Assembly (NCBI RefSeq): GCF_900106755.1
Contig: NZ_FNNN01000011.1
Location: 62,001 to 126,000 of the forward strand
DNA: 64,000 nucleotides
Origin: Bacteroides faecis MAJ27
GTDB taxonomy: Bacteria > Bacteroidota > Bacteroidia > Bacteroidales > Bacteroidaceae
Direction of reading: 5' to 3'
Numbering within the stretch: position 1 is the first letter of the stretch; the number at the start of each line of letters is the position of its first letter. The notes under the pieces are model-generated. The model saw nothing but the letters and a program-made list of their open reading frames with translations. It did not search any database and was not told the origin of the DNA. This document shows positions 22,497 to 49,020 of this stretch, in pieces. A program made the translations under genes and the position numbers.

Positions 22497-22534
22497 AAAA
22501 TCCCCTCATTGGCAAACAGTGAGGGGATTTTTTA
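22497..22534 (+). terminator. Terminator of the rpmB operon
   Basis: AAAATCCCCTCA (22497-22508) pairs perfectly with 22520-22531 and runs into T residues. Confidence 0.85.
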
Positions 22535-22608: not shown

Positions 22609-23568
22609 ATGGGATTTTTTAGTTTTTTTTCAAAGGAGAAGAAGGAAACTTTAGATAAAGGATTATCTAAAACCAAAGAGAGCGTATTCAGTAAAATCGC
22701 TCGCGCTGTGGCCGGTAAGTCGAAAGTGGACGACGAAGTATTGGATAATCTGGAAGAAGTTTTGATCACATCGGACGTGGGGGTAGAGACAACTTTGAAT
22801 ATTATCAAACGTATCGAAAAACGTGCTGCCGCAGACAAATATGTGAATACGCAGGAATTGAACCATATACTGCGCGATGAGATTGCTGCCCTTTTGACCG
22901 AGAATAATTCGGATGATGTAGCAGACTTTGATGTACCTATCGAGAAAAAGCCTTATGTAATTATGGTAGTGGGAGTAAATGGGGTAGGTAAAACAACAAC
23001 AATCGGAAAATTAGCTTATCAATTCAAGAAAGCGGGCAAATCTGTTTATCTGGGTGCAGCCGACACATTCCGCGCAGCTGCTGTAGAGCAGTTGATGATT
23101 TGGGGTGAAAGGGTAGGTGTACCTGTTGTCAAACAGAAAATGGGTGCAGACCCTGCATCTGTCGCTTTCGACACACTGAGTTCTGCCGTTGCCAACAATG
23201 CGGATGTGGTAATTATCGATACAGCCGGTCGTCTGCACAACAAAGTAGGCTTGATGAATGAGTTGACCAAAATTAAAAACGTCATGAAGAAGGTAGTTCC
23301 CAATGCACCGGACGAAGTGCTGCTGGTACTGGATGGTTCTACCGGACAAAATGCGTTCGAGCAGGCCAAGCAGTTCACTTTAGCTACGGAAGTGACCGCA
23401 ATGGCGATCACCAAACTGGACGGAACTGCTAAAGGCGGAGTGGTCATCGGAATTTCCGACCAGTTCAAGATTCCTGTAAAATATATCGGATTGGGTGAAG
23501 GCATGGAAGATTTACAGGTCTTCCGCAAGAATGAATTTGTTGATTCCCTGTTTGGAGAGAATGCATGA
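22609..23568 (+). CDS. ftsY: Signal recognition particle receptor FtsY
   Basis: FtsY is the membrane-associated GTPase that docks SRP-ribosome complexes at the translocon. The 319-residue protein has a short N-terminal region (no long acidic A domain), the N domain, and the GTPase motifs G1 (GVNGVGKTTT), DTAGR (G3), TKLDGTAKGG (G4) and GLGEGMEDL near the end. Its stop overlaps the rimO start by 4 bp (ATGA), so translation of the two is probably coupled. Confidence 0.97.
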   Translation: MGFFSFFSKEKKETLDKGLSKTKESVFSKIARAVAGKSKVDDEVLDNLEEVLITSDVGVETTLNIIKRIEKRAAADKYVNTQELNHILRDEIAALLTENNSDDVADFDVPIEKKPYVIMVVGVNGVGKTTTIGKLAYQFKKAGKSVYLGAADTFRAAAVEQLMIWGERVGVPVVKQKMGADPASVAFDTLSSAVANNADVVIIDTAGRLHNKVGLMNELTKIKNVMKKVVPNAPDEVLLVLDGSTGQNAFEQAKQFTLATEVTAMAITKLDGTAKGGVVIGISDQFKIPVKYIGLGEGMEDLQVFRKNEFVDSLFGENA

Positions 23569-24875
23569 AAAGAAAGAGAATAGATATTATTACTTTAGGT
23601 TGTTCCAAAAATTTAGTAGACTCGGAGCAGTTGATGCGTCAGCTGGAAGAAGCAGGATATAGCGTAACTCATGATACTGAAAAACCGGAAGGGGAAATTG
23701 CGGTGATCAACACCTGCGGGTTCATCGGTGACGCGAAAGAAGAGTCTATCAACATGATTCTGGAATTTGCAGAAAGAAAAGAAGAAGGCGATCTGAAGAA
23801 ACTTTTTGTAATGGGTTGTCTTTCCGAACGTTATCTGCAAGAACTGGCTATTGAAATTCCACAGGTGGATAAGTTCTACGGTAAATTCAACTGGAAAGAA
23901 CTTTTGCAGGACTTGGGAAAAACATATCATGAGGAATTATACATTGAGCGTACTTTGACGACTCCCAAGCATTATGCATATCTGAAGATTTCAGAAGGGT
24001 GCGACCGCAAATGCTCTTATTGTGCTATTCCCATTATCACCGGACATCATATATCCAAGCCGATAGAAGAAATTCTGGACGAGGTACGGTATCTGGTATC
24101 GCAAGGAGTAAAAGAGTTTCAGGTGATTGCTCAGGAATTGACATATTACGGAATTGACCTGTATAAAAAGCAAATGTTGCCCGAATTGATCGAACGTATT
24201 TCGGAAATACCGGGCGTAGAATGGATTCGTTTGCATTATGCGTATCCGGCACATTTTCCAACGGATTTATTCCGTGTAATGCGTGAACGTGATAATGTCT
24301 GCAAATATATGGATATTGCCTTGCAGCACATCAGCGATAATATGCTGAAATTAATGCGCCGGCAAGTAGGCAAGGAAGATACCTACAAGTTGATTGAGCA
24401 ATTCCGTAAAGAAGTGCCGGGCATTCATCTGCGCACCACGCTGATGGTAGGACATCCGGGAGAAACGGAGGAGGACTTTGAAGAGCTGAAAGAGTTTGTG
24501 CGCAAAGCGCGTTTTGACAGAATGGGAGCTTTCGCCTATTCTGAAGAAGAAGGAACTTATGCCGCCAAACAATATGAAGACTCTATACCACAGGAGGTTA
24601 AGCAAGCCCGACTGGATGAACTGATGGATATCCAGCAAGGTATTTCAGCAGAATTGAGCGCAGCGAAAATCGGTCAGCAGATGAAAGTGATCATCGACCG
24701 GATCGAGGGAGATTATTATATCGGACGTACAGAGTTTGATTCACCGGAGGTAGATCCGGAGGTGTTGATCAGCCATTCTGGAGAGGAACTTGAAATCGGG
24801 AAATTCTATCGGGTAGAAGTAACCGACGCGGACGATTTTGATTTATATGCAAAGATAATGAACAAGTATGAATAA
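23565..24875 (+). CDS. rimO: Ribosomal protein S12 methylthiotransferase RimO
   Basis: RimO is a radical-SAM enzyme that adds a methylthio group to a conserved Asp of ribosomal protein S12. The 436-residue protein has the N-terminal UPF0004 domain with three Cys (TLGCSKN, NTCGF, MGCLS), the radical-SAM CxxxCxxC motif (SEGCDRKCSYCAIP) and a C-terminal TRAM domain (about 370-436). It overlaps ftsY by 4 bp and the following HU gene by 8 bp, so all belong to one transcript. Confidence 0.97.
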   Translation: MKRKRIDIITLGCSKNLVDSEQLMRQLEEAGYSVTHDTEKPEGEIAVINTCGFIGDAKEESINMILEFAERKEEGDLKKLFVMGCLSERYLQELAIEIPQVDKFYGKFNWKELLQDLGKTYHEELYIERTLTTPKHYAYLKISEGCDRKCSYCAIPIITGHHISKPIEEILDEVRYLVSQGVKEFQVIAQELTYYGIDLYKKQMLPELIERISEIPGVEWIRLHYAYPAHFPTDLFRVMRERDNVCKYMDIALQHISDNMLKLMRRQVGKEDTYKLIEQFRKEVPGIHLRTTLMVGHPGETEEDFEELKEFVRKARFDRMGAFAYSEEEGTYAAKQYEDSIPQEVKQARLDELMDIQQGISAELSAAKIGQQMKVIIDRIEGDYYIGRTEFDSPEVDPEVLISHSGEELEIGKFYRVEVTDADDFDLYAKIMNKYE

Positions 24876-25140
24876 TAAGGAATTTACATCGGAACTGGCA
24901 GACAGACTGGGATATACTATCAAAGACACTTCTGAACTGATAAGTTCTTTATTGTCTGATATGACACAGGAACTGGAAGATGGAAATGTGATTGCCATAC
25001 AGGGCTTCGGTTCTTTCGAAGTGAAGAAAAAGGCGGAACGTATTTCGATCAATCCGTCCACCAAGCAGCGCATGCTGGTTCCTCCCAAACTGGTATTGTC
25101 ATACAGACCCAGTAATACACTGAAAGACAAGTTTAAATAA
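24868..25140 (+). CDS. HU/IHF-family DNA-binding protein
   Basis: This 90-residue protein has the complete HU fold: N-terminal helices (LADRLGYTIKDTSELISSLL), the GFGSFEV hinge, a beta-arm with the intercalating NP pair (SINPSTKQRMLVPPK) and the C-terminal helix (NTLKDKF). It bends DNA in the nucleoid. The gene overlaps rimO by 8 bp and lies 17 bp before a second HU-domain gene that encodes a membrane-spanning fusion. The tandem raises the possibility that the two HU domains form heterodimers; that is a hypothesis. Confidence 0.93.
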   Translation: MNNKEFTSELADRLGYTIKDTSELISSLLSDMTQELEDGNVIAIQGFGSFEVKKKAERISINPSTKQRMLVPPKLVLSYRPSNTLKDKFK

Positions 25141-25157
25141 TATATATTTTCCCAATT

Positions 25158-26597
25158 ATGAATGAAAGACTGACAATTCAAGACCTTATCGACTTATTGG
25201 CGGCTAAACATAGCATGACCAAGAAGGATGCCGAAGCATTCGTCAAAGAGTTCTTTCTCTTGATAGAACAAGCCCTGGAGAATGAGAAGACTGTGAAAAT
25301 CAAAGGATTGGGGACTTTCAAACTTGTTGATGTCGATAGCCGGGAAAGCGTTAATGTCAACACTGGGGAGCGTTTTCAGATAAAAGGGCACACCAAAGTA
25401 TCGTTTACTCCGGACACGACGCTCAGAGATACGATAAATAAGCCTTTTGCGCATTTTGAGACGGTAGTACTAAATGAGGGTACGGTATTGGAAGATACTC
25501 CGATGGAGGAATCCGATGAGGAAGAAGCCTCGGTTGCTGACAGTGAAGCCGAAATGGTCGATTCTGAAGTTACAGAGGATAAAAATACTGATGAAGATAC
25601 TCAGGAAGAAATACAGCCGGAAGAGCCCGCAATAGAAGAACCGGCAACTGAAGCAGTGGCTGCGGTTAAAGGAGAGGAGACCGATACGAATGAAACCGTT
25701 CCGACAGAAACAGAACCGGAACCTGCTGTTATAGAGCAACCTATGACCGAAGAATTATTGGAATCAGAAGCCGAATCGGAATCAATACTTGAAGATTCTT
25801 CAGAAGAGGAACCTTCAGAAACTCCATTAGAACCTGACTTCAGTCCGGCAGCAACAGAAGAGCCGGTTGAAGAAGCTTCGGAAGAAACAATTATAGAAGA
25901 ACCAGAAACAGAGAAGAAAAAAACAGAAACTACTGCAGAACAAATTATCGCCCAAGAACTTTATAAAGCGAATATGGAACCTGCAACACCGAAAAAAGAA
26001 CCGGAAACAGAACAGCCGAAAGCCGCCTATACCGATAAAGACAGTGATAAAAAGGAGAAATCAGCGATTCCTTATCTGATAGCAACGATTATTATAGTCT
26101 TGTTATTGTGTGGAGGAGCTATTCTGTTTATTTATTACCCGGATTTATTCTCTTCTTCATCTGATTCTGATAAGGATATAGTCGACATGCCGGAGGCCGT
26201 TCAGCCTGTTCAGCCGGAAGCACAACTTTCTGATACAATTGTGCAAAAAGATACAGTAGCGGAGGCAGCTCCTGTTATGCCCGACGAAACTGTGCAGCCA
26301 AAACCTGTAGTCAAGAAGGAACCGGCAGCGGAACCTGTCAAAGCAGAAAGTAAACCTGCCCAACAGCAACAGCCTGCAACCTCGGTATATTCGGATTCTG
26401 CATCCTATAAGATTACCGGTACCAAAACAAAATACACCATTAAAGAGGGGGAAACTTTAACACGAGTTTCATTACGCTTTTACGGTACAAAAGCGATGTG
26501 GCCATACATCGTAAAACACAACCCGAAAGTAATTAAGAACCCCGATAACGTGCCATACGGTACAACAATCGAGATACCGGAACTTACAAAAGAATAA
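25158..26597 (+). CDS. HU domain - acidic linker - transmembrane helix - LysM fusion protein
   Basis: The 479-residue protein combines four parts. Residues 1-92 are an HU/IHF-type DNA-binding domain (KKDAEAFVKEFFLLIEQAL, KGLGTFKL, TPDTTLRD), but the arm tip reads VNVNTGE instead of RNPxTG, so the intercalating proline is missing. Residues 110-260 are extremely rich in Glu. Residues 303-327 are one membrane helix (PYLIATIIIVLLLCGGAIL). After a Pro/Glu/Lys linker, residues 424-476 are a LysM domain (YTIKEGETLTRVSLRFYG, MWPYIVKHNPKVI). The expected topology is HU in the cytosol and LysM in the periplasm, so the protein could tie the nucleoid to peptidoglycan. It is last in the ftsY-rimO-HU operon. 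The domain calls are firm; the tether role is inference. Confidence 0.88.
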   Translation: MNERLTIQDLIDLLAAKHSMTKKDAEAFVKEFFLLIEQALENEKTVKIKGLGTFKLVDVDSRESVNVNTGERFQIKGHTKVSFTPDTTLRDTINKPFAHFETVVLNEGTVLEDTPMEESDEEEASVADSEAEMVDSEVTEDKNTDEDTQEEIQPEEPAIEEPATEAVAAVKGEETDTNETVPTETEPEPAVIEQPMTEELLESEAESESILEDSSEEEPSETPLEPDFSPAATEEPVEEASEETIIEEPETEKKKTETTAEQIIAQELYKANMEPATPKKEPETEQPKAAYTDKDSDKKEKSAIPYLIATIIIVLLLCGGAILFIYYPDLFSSSSDSDKDIVDMPEAVQPVQPEAQLSDTIVQKDTVAEAAPVMPDETVQPKPVVKKEPAAEPVKAESKPAQQQQPATSVYSDSASYKITGTKTKYTIKEGETLTRVSLRFYGTKAMWPYIVKHNPKVIKNPDNVPYGTTIEIPELTKE

Positions 26598-26835: not shown

Positions 26836-27831
26836 ATGGCTGAATCAATTGATATCCGCGAACTGAATGAGCGGATTGAAAGACAAAGTGCTTTCGTTAC
26901 CAATCTTACGACAGGTATGGACCAAATCATTGTTGGTCAGAAACATTTGGTTGAATCACTGCTTATCGGATTGCTTTCCGATGGACATGTTCTTCTGGAA
27001 GGTGTTCCCGGTTTGGCAAAAACTTTGGCTATTAAAACACTCGCTTCACTGATTGACGCGAAATATAGCCGTATTCAGTTCACTCCAGACTTATTGCCGG
27101 CTGACGTTATCGGTACCATGGTTTACAGCCAGAAAGATGAATCTTTCAAAGTACAAAGAGGACCTATCTTCGCCAACTTCGTATTGGCGGATGAAATAAA
27201 CCGTGCTCCGGCCAAAGTACAAAGTGCTTTGCTGGAAGCCATGCAGGAACGCCAGGTTACTATCGGCAAAGAAACATTTATGTTGCCGGAACCTTTCTTA
27301 GTTCTGGCTACCCAGAACCCGATCGAACAAGAAGGTACTTACCCGCTTCCTGAAGCACAGGTAGACCGTTTCATGCTGAAAGTAGTGATTGACTATCCGA
27401 AACTGGAAGAAGAAAAACTGATTATCCGTCAGAATATCAACGGAGAGAAGTTCAATGTGAAACCTATTCTAAAAGCAGAAGAAATAATCGAAGCCCGCAA
27501 AGTCGTTCGTCAGGTATATCTGGATGAGAAAATAGAACGCTATATCGTGGATATTGTATTCGCAACCCGTTTCCCCGAAAAGTACGACCTCAAAGAACTG
27601 AAAGACATGATCGGATTTGGTGGTTCACCCCGTGCTTCTATCAATCTGGCTCTGGCTGCCCGTACATACGCTTTCATCAAGCGCCGTGGCTACGTTATTC
27701 CGGAAGATGTACGTGCTGTTGCACATGATGTTCTCCGTCACCGTATCGGATTGACTTACGAAGCGGAAGCCAACAACATGACTTCGGACGAAATCATCAG
27801 CAAGATTCTGAACAAGGTTGAAGTGCCCTAA
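26836..27831 (+). CDS. MoxR-family AAA+ ATPase
   Basis: The 331-residue AAA+ ATPase has Walker A (GVPGLAKT), Walker B (VLADEINRAPAK), sensor 1 (LATQNPIEQEGTYPLPEAQ) and sensor 2 (GSPRAS) motifs of the MoxR class. MoxR proteins act as chaperones that remodel partners carrying VWA domains; here four such partners or accessory proteins follow. It is the first gene of the Bat operon, 25 bp before the DUF58 gene. Confidence 0.95.
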   Translation: MAESIDIRELNERIERQSAFVTNLTTGMDQIIVGQKHLVESLLIGLLSDGHVLLEGVPGLAKTLAIKTLASLIDAKYSRIQFTPDLLPADVIGTMVYSQKDESFKVQRGPIFANFVLADEINRAPAKVQSALLEAMQERQVTIGKETFMLPEPFLVLATQNPIEQEGTYPLPEAQVDRFMLKVVIDYPKLEEEKLIIRQNINGEKFNVKPILKAEEIIEARKVVRQVYLDEKIERYIVDIVFATRFPEKYDLKELKDMIGFGGSPRASINLALAARTYAFIKRRGYVIPEDVRAVAHDVLRHRIGLTYEAEANNMTSDEIISKILNKVEVP

Positions 27832-27856
27832 TTTGCGCTACTTAACTATTGCATAA

Positions 27857-28726
27857 ATGGAAACAAGTGAAATATTAAAAAAGGTTCGTCAGATTGAAAT
27901 CAAGACACGAGGACTGTCTAACAATATCTTTGCAGGCCAATACCATTCGGCCTTCAAGGGTAGGGGTATGTCTTTCTCGGAAGTCCGTGAGTATCAGTTT
28001 GGCGACGATATACGCGACATCGACTGGAATGTGACAGCACGATTCAACAAACCTTATGTGAAAGTGTTTGAAGAAGAGCGCGAACTGACAGTGATGTTGA
28101 TGGTCGATGTTTCCGGAAGTTTGGAATTTGGTACAGTGAAACAACTGAAGAAGGATATGGTAACGGAAATTGCAGCTACTCTTGCATTCTCCGCTATCCA
28201 GAACAACGATAAAATTGGTGTGATCTTCTTTTCAGACCGGATAGAGAAATTTATTCCTCCCAAAAAGGGGCGTAAACATATTCTATATATTATCCGCGAA
28301 CTGATTGACTTTCAGCCGGAAAGCCGCCGTACCAATATTCGTCTGGCATTGGAGTATCTGACTAATGTAATGAAAAGACGTTGTACTGCGTTTATTTTAT
28401 CCGACTTCATCGATCAGGACAACTTCAAGAACGCTTTGACTATCGCCAACCGGAAGCATGACGTAGTGGCATTGCAGGTGTATGACAGGAGAGTGAGTGA
28501 TCTTCCTCCGGTAGGACTGATGCGGATAAAGGATGCGGAAACCGGTCATGAACAATGGATCGATACTTCTTCCAAAGCTGTACGCCGGGCACACCGTGAC
28601 TGGTGGATCAACAAACAGACTGAACTGAACGACACATTTACCAAAAGTAATGTAGACTCCGTATCTGTGAGAACCGACCAGGATTACGTAAAGGCATTGT
28701 TGAATTTATTTGCCAAACGAAATTAA
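27857..28726 (+). CDS. DUF58/VWA-like protein of the Bat operon
   Basis: The 289-residue protein belongs to DUF58. It has the conserved N-terminal segment GRGMSFSEVREYQFGDDIRD and a degenerate von Willebrand A fold with a MIDAS-like DVSGS motif (MLMVDVSGSL). Its usual partner is the MoxR ATPase directly upstream. It has no membrane segment and is probably cytosolic, acting between MoxR and the membrane Bat proteins. The stop shares its last base with the ATG of the next gene (28726). Confidence 0.93.
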   Translation: METSEILKKVRQIEIKTRGLSNNIFAGQYHSAFKGRGMSFSEVREYQFGDDIRDIDWNVTARFNKPYVKVFEEERELTVMLMVDVSGSLEFGTVKQLKKDMVTEIAATLAFSAIQNNDKIGVIFFSDRIEKFIPPKKGRKHILYIIRELIDFQPESRRTNIRLALEYLTNVMKRRCTAFILSDFIDQDNFKNALTIANRKHDVVALQVYDRRVSDLPPVGLMRIKDAETGHEQWIDTSSKAVRRAHRDWWINKQTELNDTFTKSNVDSVSVRTDQDYVKALLNLFAKRN

Positions 28727-48722: not shown

Positions 48723-48796
48723 GGTCGCGTAGCTCAACTGAATAGAGTAGCTGACTACGGATCAGCCGGTTACAGGTTTGAATCCTGTCGCGATCA
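48723..48796 (+). tRNA. tRNA-Arg(ACG), copy 1
   Basis: The 74-nt sequence folds as a tRNA: acceptor GGTCGCG with CGCGATC, D-stem, anticodon stem GCTGA/TCAGC with loop CTACGGA (anticodon ACG), and T-arm ACAGG-TTTGAAT-CCTGT. Discriminator is A. CCA is not encoded. The ACG anticodon, with A34 probably changed to inosine, reads CGU, CGC and CGA. Confidence 0.93.
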
Positions 48797-48815
48797 CTTT
48801 TTCGGAAAACAGAAT

Positions 48816-48889
48816 GGCCGCGTAGCTCAACTGAATAGAGTAGCTGACTACGGATCAGCCGGTTACAGGTTTGAATCCTGTCGCGGTCA
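48816..48889 (+). tRNA. tRNA-Arg(ACG), copy 2
   Basis: It is identical to copy 1 apart from a paired change in the acceptor stem: GGCCGCG with CGCGGTC, so position 3:70 is C-G instead of T-A. Anticodon ACG. It follows copy 1 after 19 bp. Confidence 0.93.
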
Positions 48890-48908
48890 CTTCTACAATA
48901 CTTAACAA

Positions 48909-48982
48909 GGTCGCGTAGCTCAACTGAATAGAGTAGCTGACTACGGATCAGCCGGTTACAGGTTTGAATCCTGTCGCGATCA
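48909..48982 (+). tRNA. tRNA-Arg(ACG), copy 3
   Basis: The sequence is the same as copy 1 in the acceptor stem (GGTCGCG with CGCGATC) and has anticodon ACG. It follows copy 2 after another 19-bp spacer, and a strong hairpin terminates the unit 2 bp later. Confidence 0.93.
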
Positions 48983-48984
48983 CC

Positions 48985-49020
48985 AAAATCCTCTGCATTT
49001 TTGCAGAGGATTTTGCATTT
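48985..49020 (+). terminator. Terminator of the tRNA-Arg cluster
   Basis: AAAATCCTCTGCA (48985-48997) pairs exactly with 49002-49014, with a four-base loop, followed by a T-rich stretch. Confidence 0.85.

Follow-up and report, generated by a model that had tools for sequence, protein, structure and literature searches.

A strictly paired HU/IHF-family protein and HU-LysM membrane protein as a candidate nucleoid-to-envelope tether in Bacteroidaceae

Two adjacent genes of Bacteroides faecis MAJ27 encode a short HU/IHF-family protein (A) and a larger protein (B) in which an HU domain is joined, through an acidic linker and one predicted membrane helix, to a LysM-type domain. The A+B unit is real and conserved, with gaps. 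We consider it reasonably probable that the two proteins form an asymmetric IHF-like heterodimer in which A would grip DNA and B would hold membrane and wall, tying the nucleoid to the envelope. At the level of sequence, this reading is supported by the domains themselves, the strict pairing of A with B, the loss of arm chemistry in B and one natural A-B fusion. To our knowledge, the placement and segregation of the nucleoid relative to the envelope are poorly understood in Bacteroidota, and the A-B unit, strictly paired and widespread in the family, would provide a direct two-gene handle on this question. It presents an HU pair in which one subunit has dropped its DNA arm chemistry and appears to have become an anchor, and naturally occurring forms with a shortened arm, without LysM or with A and B fused separate the functions of the unit.

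The window analysed is a stretch of 64,000 nucleotides, and the coordinates below count from its first letter. For comparison we examined 199 loci, 198 of which contain a B frame of 150 aa or more. These yielded 148 distinct B proteins, on which the trait counts were made: 119 from Bacteroidales and 29 from f48, one family in another class of the Bacteroidota phylum, referred to below as the second class. The features of A and B in the window are as follows.

24868..25140, + strand: A, short HU/IHF-family protein of 90 aa, proposed DNA-gripping partner (PF00216 at 90.6 bits; basic arm, NP kept)
25158..26597, + strand: B, 479-aa protein with HU, acidic linker, single membrane helix and LysM in this order, proposed to act as the anchor
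25158..25442, + strand: HU domain of B, residues 1-95 (PF00216; AlphaFold blocks at pLDDT 76-93; Foldseek matches to IHF/HU)
25335..25394, + strand: beta-arm of B, residues 60-79 (V67 at the proline position; shortened in some relatives)
25434..25472, + strand: B-specific motif following the HU domain, residues 93-105, INKPFAHFETVVL (pattern in 119/119 Bacteroidales B and 22/29 second-class B)
25485..26057, + strand: acidic fast-evolving linker, predicted cytosolic, residues about 110-300 (composition; pLDDT mostly <50)
26067..26135, + strand: membrane helix of B, residues 304-326 (AlphaFold helix; hydrophobic segment)
26148..26411, + strand: low-confidence linker, predicted periplasmic, residues 331-418 (AlphaFold confidence)
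26415..26591, + strand: LysM-type domain of B, residues 420-478 (pLDDT 93-97; profile from B homologues)

Architecture and predicted topology of protein B

The HU fold originally predicted at the N-terminus of B is borne out by a Pfam scan, in which residues 6-94 score 83.4 bits on PF00216 against a cut-off of 22.4; the source genome as a whole has 21 matches to this family. Membership of B in the HU/IHF family rests on profile and fold, and not on the arm proline. The acidic character claimed for residues 110-260 is equally clear, with 58 D/E and 5 K/R among 151 residues. AlphaFold gives confident folds for the HU domain, for a helix at residues 304-326 (10-residue blocks at pLDDT 83-93) and for residues 421-479 (blocks at pLDDT 93-97), with low confidence in between. 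Where measurable, dN/dS values of 0.02-0.06 for A and for the HU and LysM domains of B point to strong constraint, dS being high and the values therefore rough. For the HU domain of B the ratio is 0.03-0.06 in four comparisons (rough, with dS about 1), and for LysM it is 0.02-0.04 in the three of four comparisons with measurable dS. The linkers are fast-evolving, the acidic one having a dN of 0.67-0.73 and a dS that is not measurable. A helix is predicted within the acidic linker at residues about 259-272 (window 25932-25973) and is a possible docking site; a motif near these residues occurs in 16/119 Bacteroidales homologues and 0/29 of the second class.

The order HU, helix, LysM recurs in related genomes, being found in 139 of the 148 distinct B proteins and in two classes, which rules out that the fusion is an assembly artefact. 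That B has one membrane helix is supported both by the AlphaFold helix and by the homologues, 144 of which carry exactly one hydrophobic segment, while three have none and one has two. K/R are more frequent in the 15 residues that precede the helix than in the 15 that follow it in 119/148 proteins and less frequent in 10, and no strong hydrophobic N-terminus was seen. The single segment and the K/R bias fit an HU domain in the cytosol and a LysM domain in the periplasm, the topology that had been proposed at the outset.

The C-terminal LysM assignment is less clear-cut as to score. In the window protein Pfam LysM (PF01476) reaches 14.2 bits, below its cut-off of 20.9, and NCBIfam NF008399 (peptidoglycan-binding protein LysM) reaches 28.4 bits against a cut-off of 134; at E<=0.1 the Pfam model matches 24 of 28 B homologues, the window protein included. 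A profile built from 28 of these B proteins, and hence a lenient test, finds a LysM-type domain in 139/148, always after the helix. Three of the nine proteins without a match were not scored as losses: L123 runs into a contig end, L209 is truncated where the analysed stretch stops, after 611 residues of a 726-aa frame, and in L163 the C-terminus has diverged. The other six (L042, L043, L051, L127, L151 and L159) are short, ending at or soon past the helix, and retain the HU domain and the membrane helix. Loss of LysM by frameshift is ruled out for L042, L043 and L051, where no downstream frame of at least 30 aa restores it. Because six B proteins are without LysM, membrane anchoring appears to be more conserved than the predicted wall binding, and peptidoglycan contact by B is predicted to be usual, not universal.

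A chain predicted to cross the membrane once, with LysM outside and a domain of a DNA-binding family in the cytosol, would also suit a membrane-bound regulator in which the state of the envelope, sensed via LysM, alters the action of the HU pair on nearby promoters. We regard this as very improbable, given that long disordered linkers on both sides of the membrane and the loss of LysM in some species are unsuited to tight signal transfer, and that HU proteins bind DNA with little sequence specificity.

Pairing with protein A, distribution and genomic neighbourhood

At every one of the 198 loci that contain a B frame, the gene immediately preceding B, in the same orientation, is A. In the window 17 bp separate the A stop from the B start, while among the distinct B proteins the two genes overlap by 8 nt in 33/148 and by 4 nt in 19/148. 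The original prediction had correctly picked out this upstream HU gene, its spacing and its retained NP, and had suggested heterodimers of the two proteins. This suggestion, itself a prediction, is strengthened by the 198/198 pairing, by a single-chain structural model and by a natural fusion. The fusion occurs in G410 (locus L247, 1204-2289), alone among the genomes examined, where A and B share one 361-aa frame between rimO and moxR; the hydrophobic segment and LysM still follow, and most of the B beta-arm is missing.

A tree of 77 HU domains, drawn from 23/119 Bacteroidales pairs, 14/29 second-class pairs and three other HU proteins of the source genome, groups the B domains of the two classes together (branch support 100/97) and likewise their A domains (95/82). 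Because the alignment has few columns and two of the three other HU proteins sit on long branches, both flagged by the tree program, the evidence for co-inheritance of A and B is suggestive and not firm. Both proteins have their best NCBIfam score on the IHF-alpha model, both below cut-off. Coupling of the A and B distance matrices beyond rimO, ftsY and moxR was no more than moderate, at a partial r of 0.42 over 43 loci. When two controls were used, A-B gave 0.52, but B-moxR also reached 0.46. Although it exceeds permutations, we did not retain this coupling as evidence, since it is insufficiently specific.

At 21 loci A and B lie in the same frame, and a single A-B chain was obtained by reading the A stop as Gln. 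The AlphaFold model of this chain (pLDDT 84.3, pTM 0.78) has single-chain IHF as its best PDB matches (2iif and 2iie; 197 columns, TM-score 0.57-0.59, rmsd 4.9), a match that is moderate. AlphaFold probably docks any two HU chains. Because of this, and because the A stop was read as Gln and the match is moderate, the model gives no specificity for A:B. The predicted A:B dimer is compatible with an IHF-like arrangement in the model, which does not imply a preference of A for B.

In a whole-protein search, B matched 34 of 61 genomes (its own included) at E<=1e-20, and 13 more had weaker matches alone. The B HU-domain profile matched 283 of 298 sampled family genomes at E<=1e-15; six of the remaining 15 have pieces in frames of 361-502 aa, that of G410 being the sole frame read. 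At the same threshold 45 of 295 genomes of the order matched, 44 with frames of 313 aa or longer and the remaining one with a 156-aa frame. In a sample of the phylum, a wider profile matched 45 of 392 genomes at E<=2.5e-25 (5 Bacteroidales and 40 f48), every one in a frame of 340 aa or longer; among the matches listed, the next ones below the threshold sit in frames of 91-271 aa. At least seven f48 genomes in this sample gave no match to the wider profile at that threshold. Seven genomes of the same genus (63-94% complete), chosen as having no strong match in the whole-protein search, showed no B, the profile giving short HU frames alone or nothing, and with the B HU profile the same was found for G858, also of this genus and 99% complete. 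If those assemblies are right, the A+B unit is dispensable.

Upstream of A, three further features define the neighbourhood.

22497..22531, + strand: terminator-like stem of 15 pairs ahead of ftsY (consensus match only)
22609..23568, + strand: ftsY, first gene of a probable ftsY-rimO-A-B operon in Bacteroidales (PF00448/PF02881; overlapping frames; synteny)
23565..24875, + strand: a gene we take to be rimO from its domain set UPF0004, Radical_SAM and TRAM_2 (4-nt overlap with ftsY, 8-nt overlap with A)

The layout makes an ftsY-rimO-A-B operon probable in Bacteroidales and is consistent with a start after the stem; a scan for sigma-70 promoters returned 11 sites versus 10.1 in shuffles. Both rimO and ftsY are found upstream of A-B at 94/96 Bacteroidales loci with enough flank, and moxR within 1 kb after B at 77/95, whereas each of the three is beside A-B at 0/13 second-class loci (these counts include some genomes twice, as present in two collections, and one locus without a 150-aa B frame). 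The association with ftsY, to which the original prediction had drawn attention, therefore holds for Bacteroidales and fails in the second class, and we rejected it as a clue to function. Since the A-B pairing occurs in both classes and ftsY is not beside it in the second, A+B is best seen as an old unit and ftsY as a Bacteroidales-only neighbour; the invariant partner of B is A, not ftsY. In the window, a moxR-type AAA gene and a DUF58 gene lie directly downstream of B (26836-28726), and three tandem tRNA-Arg (acg) genes are found at 48723-48985.

Arm chemistry and the assignment of DNA contact

Arm positions are given in what we take to be E. coli HU numbering (R53, R55, R58, R61, P63, R80), the alignment of B to these positions being likewise our assumption. 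The arm of B reads VNVNTGE, with V at the HU proline position, and the predicted loss of the intercalating proline proved general in its order: among 119 Bacteroidales pairs, the P63-equivalent position is P in 118 A and in no B, where it is V/I in 118. The R53-, R55- and R80-equivalent positions are K/R in 118, 119 and 117 of the 119 A proteins, while in B they are mostly I/V, V and T. At the R61-equivalent position the basic residue has been lost in A too (V/I in 115/119), B also having V or I. Averaged over the 119 pairs, the net charge of the HU domain is +6.2 for A and -1.7 for B, and that of the A arm and saddle is +6.9. In the second class, the arm proline is retained in A (29/29) and B (29/29), and because both proteins keep it there, one-armedness is not general.

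The arm of B is also variable in length. We searched 25 genomes with a low score or no match and read the B-like frames of 13. Of these relatives, picked for low score, ten have a shortened arm, one of them being the A-B fusion of G410, two have a diverged arm of full length, and one has a frame broken by undetermined bases. In the alignment, the A proteins beside the ten shortened arms keep the proline in 6 cases and have lost it in 4. All 148 distinct B proteins have 26 aligned residues between residues 57 and 82 of the window protein, shortened arms being confined to the extra relatives. A regular-expression count of arm length, which gave no value for 16 of 148, returned a length of 9 in 7/148; this was discarded as an accidental pattern fit, seven also being the number of second-class proteins with Y before N-P.

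Because B has lost the R53, R55, P63 and R80 equivalents and some arms are shortened, DNA contact is better assigned to A than to B, and in Bacteroidales B by itself would, judging from its sequence, bind DNA poorly. Two basic residues of B do persist in Bacteroidales: K47, aligned to IHF-alpha K45 (an equivalence drawn from structure chain names and alignments), is K/R in 117/119, and R62, aligned to HU R58, is R in 117/119. Through these residues the HU body of B might possibly touch DNA. They would also leave room for some DNA contact if B homodimerised and tethered DNA by itself, with A as an ordinary neighbouring HU protein, and the HU body of B is intact and under constraint. We nevertheless find this arrangement improbable in view of the invariant pairing with A, the shortened arms, the neutral to acidic DNA face and the one natural fusion.

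The same losses bear on another possibility, namely that B is a protein hub resembling HubP/FimV, whose acidic region recruits clients to a position set by LysM, with the A:B head serving as a dimerisation or client platform that makes little DNA contact. CCDC81-type HU domains have been proposed to act as platforms of this kind. The loss of most DNA-contact residues from the B HU domain, the shortened arm in some species and, in four of the ten species concerned, the absence of the arm proline from A would all agree with such a hub, as would the acidic, fast-evolving region, which resembles HubP/FimV in composition. However, the strongly basic arm of Bacteroidales A, with its proline in 118/119, would be strange in a platform that is not for DNA, the second class retains the proline in both subunits, and the Pfam scan finds no FimV domain in B. 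On balance we judge a hub unlikely.

The asymmetric A:B heterodimer remains our preferred reading. In it, the HU body at the N-terminus of B would lie in the cytosol and provide half of the dimer as well as the anchor, while the basic, proline-tipped arm of A would grip and bend DNA. The acidic disordered linker of B would let the DNA-bound head extend away from the membrane, and may keep it off the anionic membrane surface. The single helix would fix B in the inner membrane and LysM would hold peptidoglycan, so that nucleoid DNA is tied to the envelope for positioning or segregation of the nucleoid. DNA binding, wall binding and this cellular role are what we infer from the features above.

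Comparison with known systems

A nucleoid-to-wall tether of this design had been called a new type of system, which is too strong, as the same genome already encodes an HU-CCDC81/SPOR protein. On the same contig, outside the window, L074 1324-2400 encodes 358 aa with PF18174, PF18175 and SPOR (PF05036) all over cut-off. This protein has two CCDC81-type HU domains, a hydrophobic stretch (by eye, unscored) and SPOR. PF18175, counted as a single domain, is over cut-off in 37 of 198 phylum genomes. B itself scores 23.1 bits on PF18175, below the cut-off of 35, and gives no PF18174 or SPOR match at E<=1. Burroughs et al. 2017 (Cell Cycle) reportedly proposed chromosome-envelope roles for the HU-CCDC81/SPOR group; that paper lay outside the reach of our literature search, which yielded no account of an HU-LysM protein among the matches listed.

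Like B, HU-CCDC81/SPOR proteins are single chains in which a hydrophobic stretch separates HU from a domain of peptidoglycan type, and they have two HU domains per unit, as do A plus B and the A-B fusion of L247. They differ in having SPOR and two short HU domains in one chain at a different locus, whereas A-B has LysM and two genes. The novelty of A+B relative to HU-SPOR lies in the wall domain, the two genes and the one-armed asymmetry. We put forward more tentatively, as possible though short of probable, that A and B, as a one-armed HU/IHF-type heterodimer, tether DNA to peptidoglycan across the envelope in Bacteroidaceae, and that the natural fusion and the shortened arms of the pair illustrate how tandem-HU wall tethers with short arms, such as the CCDC81/SPOR proteins, could have originated.

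A second comparison is with the polar hubs HubP and FimV of gammaproteobacteria. HubP, a hub composed of LysM, membrane and acidic regions, connects chromosome positioning with the cell pole in Vibrio cholerae (PMC12918733, PMC8789113), where it binds ParA1 and thereby influences the location of the chromosome 1 origin (PMC8789113). In Pseudomonas putida the LysM of FimV interacts with peptidoglycan, while FimV is not involved in chromosome segregation (PMC12918733). HubP/FimV have a periplasmic LysM, one membrane region and a long acidic cytosolic region, features also predicted for B, but unlike B they have LysM at the N-terminus and a C-terminal FimV TPR domain. Chromosome contact by HubP runs via ParA1, while B itself has a domain of DNA-binding type. 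By analogy, HubP would be the closest working counterpart of B, and not a relative in chain order or domains.

For the head of the proposed tether, the nearest comparison is with IHF alpha/beta and HU alpha/beta, which like A-B consist of two related HU-fold chains, and it is single-chain IHF that the A-B model matches best. IHF is a soluble protein with a proline at the tip of each of its two arms; in A-B, one subunit is predicted to be membrane-bound, and in Bacteroidales that subunit, B, has shed the proline and most of the arm charges.
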